From the NCBI RefSeq assembly GCF_006717095.1, contig NZ_VFQE01000001.1, positions 2,356,001-2,420,000 of the forward strand: a DNA stretch of 64,000 bases. The letters run 5' to 3'. Below the pieces are notes generated by a model. It did no database searches. It worked only from the letters and a program-made list of their open reading frames with translations, and was not told where the DNA came from. Position 1 is the stretch's first letter; every line of letters starts with the position of its first letter. Source of the stretch: Blastococcus colisei. GTDB taxonomy: Bacteria; Actinomycetota; Actinomycetes; Mycobacteriales; Geodermatophilaceae. Shown piece after piece: positions 1 through 10,923 of this stretch. Position numbers and translations under genes: made by a program.

Positions 1-494
1 CGACCGGGCAGCGACAGGCACCGGGCCGCGCGCTCCTGCCCCGTCCGTCCACGCTGGACGGCCGCACCGTCGGGCTGCTCGACATCAGCAAGGCCCGCGG
101 CGACGTCGTCCTCGACCGGCTGGAGCAGCTGTTGACCGCGGACGGGGTCCATGTGCGCCGGTACCGCAAGCCGACGTTCGCCCGCACCGCCCCGGTCGAC
201 CTGCGGCACGAGATCGCCGAGCAGTGCGAGGTGGTGATCGAGGCGCTCGCCGATTAGGGCTCGTGCACGTCGTGCAGTGTGCACGACATCGCCGATCTCG
301 AACGCCGCGGCGTGGTGGCCCTCTTCCTCGCCAGCGAGGCCTTCGCCGAGGCCGCGCGCGTGCAGGGCGAGGCGCTCGGCTTCCCCGCCCCGTTCGTGCT
401 GGTGCCCCACCCGGTCCAGGACCGGACCGACGACGAGCTGCGCGCCACCGCCGAGCAGGTCTACCCCGACGTGGTCGCCGCGCTGACGGCGTAG
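1..494 (+). CDS. UGSC-family selenoprotein, C-terminal part, with UAG as the Sec codon
   Basis: The 5' end lies outside the window; the frame is open from base 3. Reading gives a lead-in ending in ALAD, then UAG at 255-257, then GSCTSCSVHD and about 70 more residues to a stop UAG at 492-494. Replacing the UAG by selenocysteine yields D-U-G-S-C-x-x-C-S-V-H-D, the hallmark of UGSC-family (seleno)proteins. Both flanks are family-like: the upstream part has a GLLD-x-S-K-A motif and the downstream part a VPHPV motif. A stop here would leave two pieces with no good start for the second. The molecular function of the family is not known; a thiol/selenol redox role is inferred from the U-x-x-C-type motif. 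An 8-bp hairpin starts 3 bases after the UAG. UAG-encoded Sec is documented in Geodermatophilus and Blastococcus, which this DNA resembles. Confidence 0.85.
255..286 (+). promoter_or_regulatory. Candidate bacterial SECIS hairpin after UAG of the UGSC gene
   Basis: UAG is at 255-257. The arms TCGTGCAC (261-268) and GTGCACGA (279-286) are perfect 8-bp inverted repeats enclosing a 10-base loop that begins with GU. The stem begins three bases downstream of the Sec codon, where bacterial SECIS elements sit so that SelB can bind the mRNA. It lies inside the coding sequence, as bacterial SECIS do. The hairpin is seen; the SelB-binding role is inferred. Confidence 0.6.
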
Positions 495-8056: not shown

Positions 8057-8926
8057 TCACCGTGCACGGGACTGCGCCCCCGGCGGGGCACCGGAACGGG
8101 CTGCCGCGGACGGGAGCAACTCGTCGATGGCGGCCGCGATGATCTCGGGATGGTCCTCCGGAGTGAAATGCCTGCCGCCCGGGATGGGCCGCAGCGTCGT
8201 GCCCAGGTCGGTGGCCAGGCGCTCGCCGTAGGCCACCTTCTGGAACCGGTCGGCCGCGCCCCACACCACCCGGGCGGGCAGACCGAGGGAGGGCAACCGG
8301 TCGCTGATCGCCAGGGTGTCCTCCACCCGGAGGTCGCTCACCTGCCGAGCGAGGGCCCGGGCCGCGCCGTGGGTGACGTAGGGCTGCCAGTGCACGCCGA
8401 TCGACTCCAGGGCCCGGCTCCGGTCGTCGTGGCCGCGGTGGAACAGCTGGACCAGCGAGGGGTAGACCATCGTCTGCGGCAGGAGCCGCAGGACGTCGGC
8501 GGCCCGCTTCATCGCGACGACGCTGGGGATGGGCCACGAGTCGTAGCAGACCCCGTTGGTGATCACGAGGCCGGAGAAGCGGTCCGGCCGTCGCACCGCG
8601 GCGATCTGCGCGACACCGCCACCGAGGTCGTGCCCGACGAGCACCGGCGCCTCGATGCCCAGCGCGTCGATCCAGCCGAGCAGCCGGTCGGCCTGGGCGG
8701 CCAGCCCGAGATCCCGGCCGGAACCGTCGGGGATGGAGGTGCCGTAGCCGGCCATCTCCAGCGCCAGGCAGCGGCCGTGGACCAGCGGCATCACGTGCCG
8801 CCACAGCCGGGGCGAGGTCGGCACACCGTGCACGAGGACGACGGGGGAGCCCTCACCGTGCTCCAGCCAGCGAACGGTCTCACCGTTCAGGGCGAGCTGC
8901 TCCTCGCGCACTCCGCCCCCGGTCAC
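8057..8926 (-). CDS. Alpha/beta hydrolase with Asp nucleophile (haloalkane dehalogenase / epoxide hydrolase-like)
   Basis: 289 residues from GTG 8926, whose first bases overlap the stop of the upstream DUF427 gene (GTGA), which implies translational coupling. The oxyanion motif is V-H-G-V-P-T near residue 30, the nucleophile elbow is G-H-D-L-G-G with Asp100, and the catalytic His is H253 in GGRHFTPEDHP. An aspartate instead of serine at the elbow is the signature of haloalkane dehalogenases, fluoroacetate dehalogenases and epoxide hydrolases. Two further dehalogenase genes follow directly, so a C-halogen substrate is the best guess. The halide-stabilising residues cannot be assigned with certainty. 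Confidence 0.8.
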   Translation of the reverse strand: MTGGGVREEQLALNGETVRWLEHGEGSPVVLVHGVPTSPRLWRHVMPLVHGRCLALEMAGYGTSIPDGSGRDLGLAAQADRLLGWIDALGIEAPVLVGHDLGGGVAQIAAVRRPDRFSGLVITNGVCYDSWPIPSVVAMKRAADVLRLLPQTMVYPSLVQLFHRGHDDRSRALESIGVHWQPYVTHGAARALARQVSDLRVEDTLAISDRLPSLGLPARVVWGAADRFQKVAYGERLATDLGTTLRPIPGGRHFTPEDHPEIIAAAIDELLPSAAARSGAPPGAQSRAR

Positions 8927-9720
8927 CGGGGGCCCTCGTCGACGTCGACGTCGACCCGTTGGTCGTCGAAGCAGAGCAACCCGCCGACGGCCTCGGCGTC
9001 GTGCATCGGCTCCGGATAGCTCCAGACGACGTCGCTGTCGTGCCGGTCCCCGTCCTGCAACGTGCGGTAGTGCGCGACGCCCTTGTAGGGGCATTGCGTG
9101 GTCGTGTAGCTGGGCGCGAGCAGCTCGGTCCGGACGTCGTCGGCCGGCACGTACCACCGCGGTGGCAGGCCGCTCTCCAGCAGCATGCGTGGGCGGGTGG
9201 AGTCGGCGACGATGGTGTTCCCCCAGCGGACGACGAGGTGCCGCGAGCTGCGCAGCACGTCGATCCGGTGGTACGGGTCACGCGGGTGGGCGAAGGCCTC
9301 CTCGTCCTCTTCGAACCAGGCGTCCATCGCGTCCCACGCGAAGGCGACCAGCCCGGCCAGGTGGCCGGCGGACGGCGGCGGCCGTTCGTAGGTCCAGGCG
9401 CCGTCCTCGGCACGGCGGTCGTCGACCTGCACCGTCCAGTACGTCGCCGCACCGAGCGCCGGGCTGCTCGCCGTCGTGTCGCTCGGCGTGAACAGGTCGG
9501 TCCGCACGTCCTCGCGGGGGAACAGGTAGCTGGGTGTCTGCCCCGACTGGTGGAGCAGCTGCGCACGGGTGCTGTCCGCGACGGTCTCGCCGCCCAGCCG
9601 CACCCGGACCCGGCGCGGTGACGGTTCGGCGTACAGCACGTGCTCCGGCGGGTGGCAATCGAAGTTGAACCGCCCGGACGGTGCGGAGCCGAACGGAGCG
9701 CTGCCGAGGGTCAGGGCCAT
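8923..9720 (-). CDS. Protein with two DUF427 domains
   Basis: 265 residues made of two tandem DUF427 units, about residues 30-125 and 155-250. Each has a V-A-D-S-T-R segment and a Y-x(n)-P-x-x-D-V-R-T-E/D-L stretch followed by an aromatic/Cys-containing turn. DUF427 is a small beta-rich domain of unknown biochemical role, very common in actinobacteria. It is the first gene of the dehalogenase cluster and is translationally coupled to the alpha/beta hydrolase. Confidence 0.85.
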   Translation of the reverse strand: MALTLGSAPFGSAPSGRFNFDCHPPEHVLYAEPSPRRVRVRLGGETVADSTRAQLLHQSGQTPSYLFPREDVRTDLFTPSDTTASSPALGAATYWTVQVDDRRAEDGAWTYERPPPSAGHLAGLVAFAWDAMDAWFEEDEEAFAHPRDPYHRIDVLRSSRHLVVRWGNTIVADSTRPRMLLESGLPPRWYVPADDVRTELLAPSYTTTQCPYKGVAHYRTLQDGDRHDSDVVWSYPEPMHDAEAVGGLLCFDDQRVDVDVDEGPR

Positions 9721-10379: not shown

Positions 10380-10835
10380 TCAGGCGAGCTGCGTGGTGAT
10401 GTCGATCGCTCCCTCGAGGCTCCGGGCGACCGGACACCCATCGGCATGGAGGGCCAGCACCCGCTGAACCTTCGTCGCGTCCTCGTCGGCGATGGTCATA
10501 CCGGTGTAGGTCACCGTGATGCGCTTGACCACCAGGACCTTGCCTTCCAACTCCACTTCACCGCGCGCATGTCCCACCAGACCGGTGGGATCGATCCGCC
10601 GGGCCGCCAGGGCTCCGGCGAACGTTCCGGTGAGCTAACCGAGAGCGGCACCGACCAGATGATCGATCGTGCTCGCGTGACTGGGGGCGGTGCCTGGCTG
10701 CATCCCGTAGTGCTCGGCGATGGCCCCGTGCATGCCGTAGACGGTCGGCTCCTCCTCACCGGGTAGGTATGCCGCCCGAAGTGGTCCTCCCAAGCGCTCG
10801 ACGCGCACGTCCGAGACGTAAGCGATCTCTGCCAC
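10380..10835 (-). CDS. OsmC-family peroxidase with in-frame UAG at the peroxidatic Cys position (candidate selenoprotein)
   Basis: One reading frame runs from GTG 10835 (AGGAGG Shine-Dalgarno 5 bases upstream) to TGA at 10380-10382, interrupted only by UAG at 10637-10635. With Sec at the UAG the protein is 151 residues, the normal OsmC size. The UAG is codon 67 in the context GAALG-U-LTGTFAGAL, where OsmC proteins carry the peroxidatic cysteine. The resolving cysteine is Cys134 in DGCPVARSL, 67 residues later; in E. coli OsmC the pair is Cys59/Cys125. Frame and homology are intact on both sides, with no frameshift, so decay is unlikely. OsmC/Ohr enzymes reduce organic hydroperoxides in the cytoplasm. 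OsmC-like selenoproteins with UGA are known; UAG here would match Geodermatophilaceae recoding. Confidence 0.85.
10612..10637 (-). promoter_or_regulatory. Candidate SECIS-like hairpin at the OsmC UAG
   Basis: On the minus-strand RNA, GCU (starting with the G of UAG) pairs with AGC. After a CA bulge, CCGG pairs with CCGG, closing an 8-base loop AACGUUCG that contains GU. A short lower stem, a bulge and a 4-bp apical stem with GU in the loop resemble known bacterial SECIS architecture. The stem is shorter than that at the UGSC gene, so this is a weaker call. Confidence 0.4.
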
Positions 10836-10923
10836 CGTGTCCTCCTGCCGTCATGGGGTCGTCGCTGACACCTATCCAGCTGGAGCTCACCGACACCTCG
10901 CCGGCTACGGGCATGGCAGCCGG

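Follow-up and report, generated by a model that had tools for sequence, protein, structure and literature searches.

The window analyzed here, a 64,000-nucleotide stretch from the genome of the soil bacterium Blastococcus colisei, carries a (-)-strand gene that, judged from sequence comparison and with a probability of roughly 95%, encodes an OsmC-type thiol/selenol peroxidase with selenocysteine (Sec) inserted at an in-frame UAG codon, kin to the OsmC selenoproteins in which Sec is encoded by UGA. The peroxidase activity is predicted from family membership. The features of the gene, with its GTG start counted as codon 1, are as follows:

10380..10835 (-): predicted OsmC-like selenoprotein gene, GTG start, TGA stop, 151 amino acids with UAG read as Sec
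10841..10846 (-): AGGAGG ribosome-binding site, 5 nt before GTG, read from the sequence
10635..10637 (-): UAG codon 67, the predicted Sec codon, at the column of the reactive Cys; TAG in 17 of 17 family homologues and TGA in 41 of 49 phylum loci
10434..10436 (-): codon 134, the second (putative resolving) Cys, in GCPVARS; invariant in the family alignment and facing the Cys of GCPV in 1ukk

The CTA at positions 10635-10637 of the (+) strand reads as TAG on the (-) strand, where it is the single internal stop in a frame that is otherwise open from GTG to TGA. The initial annotation had described this interrupted OsmC frame, with UAG at codon 67, the second Cys at codon 134, and a ribosome site at the start, and all of these were found again in the (-)-strand sequence and its translation (the two residues are numbered 68 and 135 in P0001). 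Its comparison of the spacing used Cys59 and Cys125 of E. coli OsmC. A gene finder with UGA as its sole Sec codon would end the OsmC gene at codon 66.

The joined protein, with TAG read as Cys, matches the Pfam OsmC family (PF02566) at 42.3 bits against a cut-off of 27.5, over residues 56-149 of P0001. The NCBIfam cut-offs were missed for both the OsmC subfamily (TIGR03562, 24.2 versus 85.8 bits) and the SACOL1771 subfamily (TIGR03563, 23.4 versus 166.15 bits), and the gene was therefore assigned to the OsmC superfamily only. With classical OsmC (TIGR03562, 1ukk) it shares the Pfam domain and two redox residues at matching columns, whereas it falls below the subfamily cut-off and would have Sec in place of Cys. 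In a single-protein phmmer alignment with 1ukk, which is weak (E 0.037) but in register, the TAG column lies opposite the Cys of AGCF and Cys135 (P0001) opposite the Cys of GCPV, and the redox residues, counted on the printed alignment, are 67 positions apart here and 66 in 1ukk. An hmmsearch of the PDB sequences with a 14-row profile gave no match at 0.01. The AlphaFold model (14 rows) has a mean pLDDT of 69.4, too modest for geometry, and places residue 67 within a predicted helix (52-78) and residue 134 between predicted helices 117-133 and 135-139.

This OsmC is present in 17 of 112 genomes of the family Geodermatophilaceae. The family set of 35 loci comprises 17 distinct coding sequences, every one of which has a single TAG, always at the same column and flanked on either side by conserved protein sequence. 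The 13 OsmC loci with organism names belong to Blastococcus, Geodermatophilus, and Modestobacter; NCBI taxonomy places Blastococcus and Modestobacter in the Geodermatophilaceae. The tRNA-Sec anticodon is CUA in all 17 OsmC-carrying family genomes.

When 396 genomes of the phylum were searched with a profile, 47 gave matches, our own among them; the other 46 all belong to the same phylum and none to the same class or order. The query gene was the sole match in a single-protein search of 394 genomes of the class (E 1e-10), and tblastn of plasmids found no OsmC match. Among 49 loci outside the family (the phylum matches G653:C231, G777:C346, G720 in three pieces, and G809 were left out), the Sec column holds TGA in 41, Cys in seven, and Asp in one. 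The initial annotation had placed the UAG exactly at the reactive Cys and had proposed both a search of related genomes for TAG or TGA at this codon and a check for homologues with a residue other than Cys; its placement is borne out by these codon counts, by the TAG in all family homologues, and by the register with 1ukk (E 0.037). The 41 TGA loci come from 39 genomes, and the tRNA-Sec anticodon is UCA in all 31 of these that were read. Two of the remaining eight have a tRNA-Sec match over the cut-off with the anticodon unread, and in six no match reaches the cut-off; the completeness of these six genomes is 96 and 98% for two and 75-82% for the other four. In the five genomes with Cys or Asp forms only, the best tRNA-Sec scores are approximately 46-51 bits, in the range of tRNA-Ser, with anticodons unread. 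In a tree of 63 rows, built without CYS_L135 (a very long branch), TGA_L110 (a copy of L109), and L139, the TAG forms make up one clade with support of 100/100, and 25 TGA rows form the clade next to it (94/91).

In the phylum set, the locus with Asp at the Sec column (L141) has HSPCARS in the usual place of GCPV, with no Cys there, and its genome (G803) holds another copy with Cys (L139); L141 is perhaps a non-redox paralogue. Loci L142 and L143, from one family of the phylum, form a deep branch of TGA-type OsmC with the motif UMMGT and belong to neither of the hairpin classes described below.

The genome also carries the machinery that Sec insertion at UAG would require, whose absence the initial annotation had named as grounds for giving up its reading. 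A tRNA-Sec with the anticodon CUA scores 66.4 bits over all 91 positions of the Rfam model (gathering score 47; a tRNA-Ser of the same genome, L002, scores 48.2 bits against it). It lies within the same few kilobases as selA (417.9 bits), selB (280.5 bits), and selD (387.1 bits), all of which score above their own cut-offs. UAG occupies the Sec site of two formate dehydrogenase (FDH) genes of this genome (L207 (-) and L208 (+), motif ARI-U-HSS) and of a gene at the edge of the window:

1..494 (+): UGSC-family selenoprotein gene, PF24696 at 114 bits; its first 19 bases precede the window
254..256 (+): UAG Sec codon of the UGSC gene; TAG in 30 of 30 UGSC loci read

The whole UGSC gene scores 151 bits with NF041046 (cut-off 125). 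The FDH fragments score 1077.9 and 1083.6 bits with their best NCBIfam model, actinobacterial formate dehydrogenase; both fall short of the cut-off of 1400, since the fragments stop at the locus edge. The UGSC and the two FDH genes are of the known Geodermatophilaceae UAG kind. The other UAG event claimed in the initial annotation, the one in the UGSC-family gene, is thus real, and its suggestion of systematic recoding holds, since UAG is found at the Sec sites of UGSC and both FDH genes. Nevertheless, UAG is still a stop elsewhere in the genome and recoding is context-dependent: the UGSC gene itself ends at TAG (492-494 (+)), as do 6 of the 30 UGSC loci read, and UAG therefore stands for Sec in context only. 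In the UGSC mRNA, UAG would serve both as the Sec codon and as the stop.

With the ordinary code, the program-made list of open reading frames contains no frame spanning the TAG, as would be expected of a pseudogene or of a base-call error in a Cys-type osmC. Such an origin has next to no likelihood: it is ruled out by the 17 of 17 homologues in which a lone TAG stands at one and the same column and the protein stays conserved after it, and the TGA at this column elsewhere in the phylum, together with tRNA-Sec anticodons that match the codon in the genomes read, likewise argues against it. The decoding of UAG as pyrrolysine, or by a general amber suppressor, would agree with the label 'tRNA-Pyl' that ARAGORN gives to the CUA tRNA. 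This tRNA, however, fits the tRNA-Sec model over its whole length and lies among the sel genes, the column elsewhere holds Sec-UGA or Cys, and the UGSC gene also stops at TAG. The single match in a PylS search of the genome (21.5 bits versus a cut-off of 178.15) rules out pyrrolysine, and we regard this class of explanation as very improbable.

Release factor 1 must compete with Sec insertion at UAG, and this competition, like the use of UAG as a stop elsewhere in the genome, favors a scheme in which the gene yields either a functional truncated product of 66 amino acids or the full-length selenoprotein, according to the selenium supply. The short form would, however, be without most of the OsmC domain, and conservation continues to the end of the protein, which makes a functional truncated product improbable. 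We prefer the decoding of UAG as Sec in a single full-length protein, a reading that came through both the comparison of homologues at this column and the search for the tRNA-Sec and that we grade as supported.

Two hairpins can form downstream of the UAG in all 17 TAG genes:

10592..10624 (-): proximal hairpin, nt 14-46 with the U of UAG as nt 1; in this genome its apical loop reads CUGGC
10572..10590 (-): distal hairpin, nt 48-66, the likely SECIS core; its 7-bp stem carries the loop GGUCU (nt 55-59)

The distal hairpin agrees in its upper stem (7 bp) and loop (5 nt, starting with G-G) with the consensus bacterial SECIS element (bSECIS) in 17 of 17 rows. Its loop GGUCU is invariant, the mean probability of its pairs is 0.98-1.0 in 16 rows and 0.52 in one, and the hairpin of our gene has a folding energy of -11.9 kcal/mol when folded alone. 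The same loop on a 7-bp stem occurs at nt 22 in both FDH genes, and the UGSC gene has a 7-bp stem with the loop AGUGU at nt 22; the resulting spacing of 18 nt fits the published range in these genes. According to a recent review (PMC13188914), most bacterial SECIS elements have 16-37 nt between the codon and the apical loop, and a subset of putative elements misfits this model. In contrast, the distal loop of the OsmC gene starts at nt 55, 51 nt after UAG, and the hairpin was not filed as a consensus bSECIS because of this spacing. Given its stem and loop, it probably works like one.

The recoding could also stand with the proximal hairpin as the SECIS element and the distal one incidental. 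The spacing of the proximal hairpin from the codon is the usual one, the pairs of its core (18-41 to 21-38) are near certain (p 0.97-1.0), a hairpin with a GG loop is found near its position in 27 of the 41 TGA homologues, and a distal GGTC hairpin arose by chance in 407 of 20000 synonymous shuffles. Synonymous variation, which is the lowest of the gene at codons 80-89 (as low in 1 of 10000 position permutations), is reduced over the 3' arm of the proximal hairpin as well as over the distal hairpin (codons 83-89), and fits either assignment. However, the proximal loop of the TAG rows starts with C-U, not with an early G, and its bases 30 and 31 vary, whereas the distal loop is invariant and equal to the FDH loops of the genome. 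We therefore consider a proximal SECIS unlikely, and the distal GGUCU hairpin the better candidate.

The stability of the fold after UAG is unexceptional, with 170 of 1000 synonymous shuffles being as low. The sequences are closely similar and therefore offer little covariation: each hairpin shows one double change, and a single proximal pair is disrupted in one row. Two further pairings were rejected. In the outer three-way closing helix of an 81-nt fold, the A208-U279 pair (A2 columns) fails in many rows by eye, and the pairing of columns 213 and 249 is contradicted by two further rows (L056 and L064), in which 213 changes and 249 does not.

Hairpin classes were also assigned in the TGA genes, with a stem of at least 6 and either a GG loop at nt 27-34 or a GGTC loop at nt 51-62. 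By these classes, which were drawn post hoc so that the counts describe and do not test, 27 of 41 TGA genes have only the GG-loop hairpin near nt 30, eight have only the GGUC-loop hairpin at approximately nt 58, and six have neither; the two classes occur together in 0 of 65 sequences, and either class in 0 of 7 Cys or Asp genes (L139, a Cys gene, is unclassed). In a consensus fold of the eight TGA rows of the distal class, GGUC pairs near the codon and the distal hairpin is absent; in their single folds, compared by eye, it is present in five and absent in L128, L130, and L132. The closest relatives of the TAG clade in the tree carry mainly the proximal type, while the distal type turns up again among other TGA rows, which weighs against a strong reading of the distal signal.

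Tentatively, and with somewhat less than even confidence, we suggest that the SECIS core of this OsmC family has two alternative places. In one set of UGA genes it would follow the codon by 25-26 nt; in another UGA set, and in the UAG genes, by 51-54 nt. The UAG genes would thus have a compound SECIS, in which the intervening hairpin would fold the surplus RNA away and leave SelB at the usual distance, breaking the published spacing rule. The model is graded no higher because the consensus fold of the eight distal-set UGA genes is without the distal hairpin. The shift from the FDH SECIS to the distal OsmC loop amounts to 33 nt, which equals the span of the proximal hairpin; this equality is suggestive only, because the outermost proximal pairs (14-46 and 15-45) are weakly predicted (p 0.02-0.66) and pair 14-46 is absent when the hairpin is folded alone. 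The displaced invariant GGUCU hairpin makes the reach of SelB from the codon directly testable.

In the mechanism that we propose, SelA would make Sec on the CUA tRNA-Sec with selenophosphate supplied by SelD, and SelB with the charged Sec-tRNA(CUA) would bind an mRNA hairpin past the codon, most likely the distal one with the GGUCU loop. Insertion of Sec at UAG would then proceed in competition with release factor 1. In the finished protein, Sec67 may attack the hydroperoxide and Cys134 may resolve the intermediate with formation of a selenylsulfide. The sequences show the position and conservation of the codon, the decoding machinery, the match of codon and anticodon across genomes, and the potential for the hairpins; the insertion of Sec, the binding of SelB at the distal hairpin, and the catalytic cycle are inferred.

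The sequences also suggest that the Sec codon changed in the direction from UGA to UAG. This change needs two base substitutions, and a stop or Trp codon must therefore have been passed on the way. Beyond the family, no sampled genome of this class has the gene, and its kin belong to other classes of the phylum. A selenoprotein encoded with UGA therefore seems to have been either retained or acquired, its codon changing together with the tRNA. The absence from the rest of the class would be explained equally by acquisition from an organism that uses UGA, followed by recoding, and by loss in the relatives.

The tRNA-Sec anticodon was read in 49 of the 112 family genomes and is CUA in 41, UCA in seven, and both in one (G015); in a 50th genome (G033), the match read proved to be a tRNA-Ser. 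All seven genomes read from three family genera (g6, g9, and g11; L011-L017) have UCA, and those read from nine other family genera have CUA, G015 having both. The anticodon switch may thus have occurred inside the family and hence be datable. The two tRNA-Sec genes of G015 (UCA and CUA; L010 and L194) point to a possible mixed-code genome or to possible contamination; the UCA gene adjoins a transposase-like ORF (by eye), and no sel genes were recognized within 2.7 kb of it.

Decoding of UAG as Sec by a CUA tRNA-Sec in Geodermatophilaceae was reportedly described by Mukai et al. in 2016, for FDH and UGSC. Another published case is AhpC of Blastococcus saxobsidens, a UAG-coded selenoprotein of this family (PMC5330540). 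The OsmC gene has in common with these selenoproteins the CUA tRNA-Sec, the UAG at the Sec site, and the bacterial family, and differs in that OsmC is absent among the families named in the accessible part of that source (PMC5330540) and in that its likely SECIS is displaced. OsmC-like selenoproteins encoded with UGA are known from the Sargasso Sea and GOS surveys (PMC1088965, PMC2398784, PMC9312934, PMC13188914), one of which gives their motif as UxxT (PMC1088965). As far as these sources describe it, the survey type likewise has an OsmC domain with Sec at a redox Cys; compared by description rather than by sequence, our gene differs from it in using UAG instead of UGA and in its motif U-L-T-G-T, which does not fit UxxT. 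In the literature covered, which was partial and did not include Mukai et al. 2016 and its supplement, nothing was found that joins OsmC with UAG-coded Sec; as far as accessible, papers mentioning OsmC, UAG, and selenocysteine refer to UAG in engineered Sec insertion, as a standard stop, or as pyrrolysine. UAG-coded Sec in the family and UGA-coded OsmC selenoproteins have already been published separately. The gene would add a further enzyme family to the users of UAG for Sec, and would offer a three-way natural comparison (UGA, UAG, and Cys) at one catalytic column.

The genomic neighborhood of OsmC varies within the family. The OsmC and UGSC genes are approximately 1.5 kb apart in all five g5 genomes that carry OsmC (G030, G051, G070, G496, and G498), and approximately 10 kb apart in the window. 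In Geodermatophilus sp. DSM 45219 (L054:1005-3456), OsmC is divergent from a gene that, by eye, has a thioredoxin-like start with a CPTC motif and otherwise resembles the gene preceding UGSC in our own genome; UGSC then follows. OsmC, the thioredoxin-like fusion, and UGSC of DSM 45219 possibly constitute a selenoprotein redox module. Near OsmC in the window, an otherwise ordinary DUF427 protein is encoded at 8923-9720 (-), matching PF04248 in two stretches (188.1 bits).
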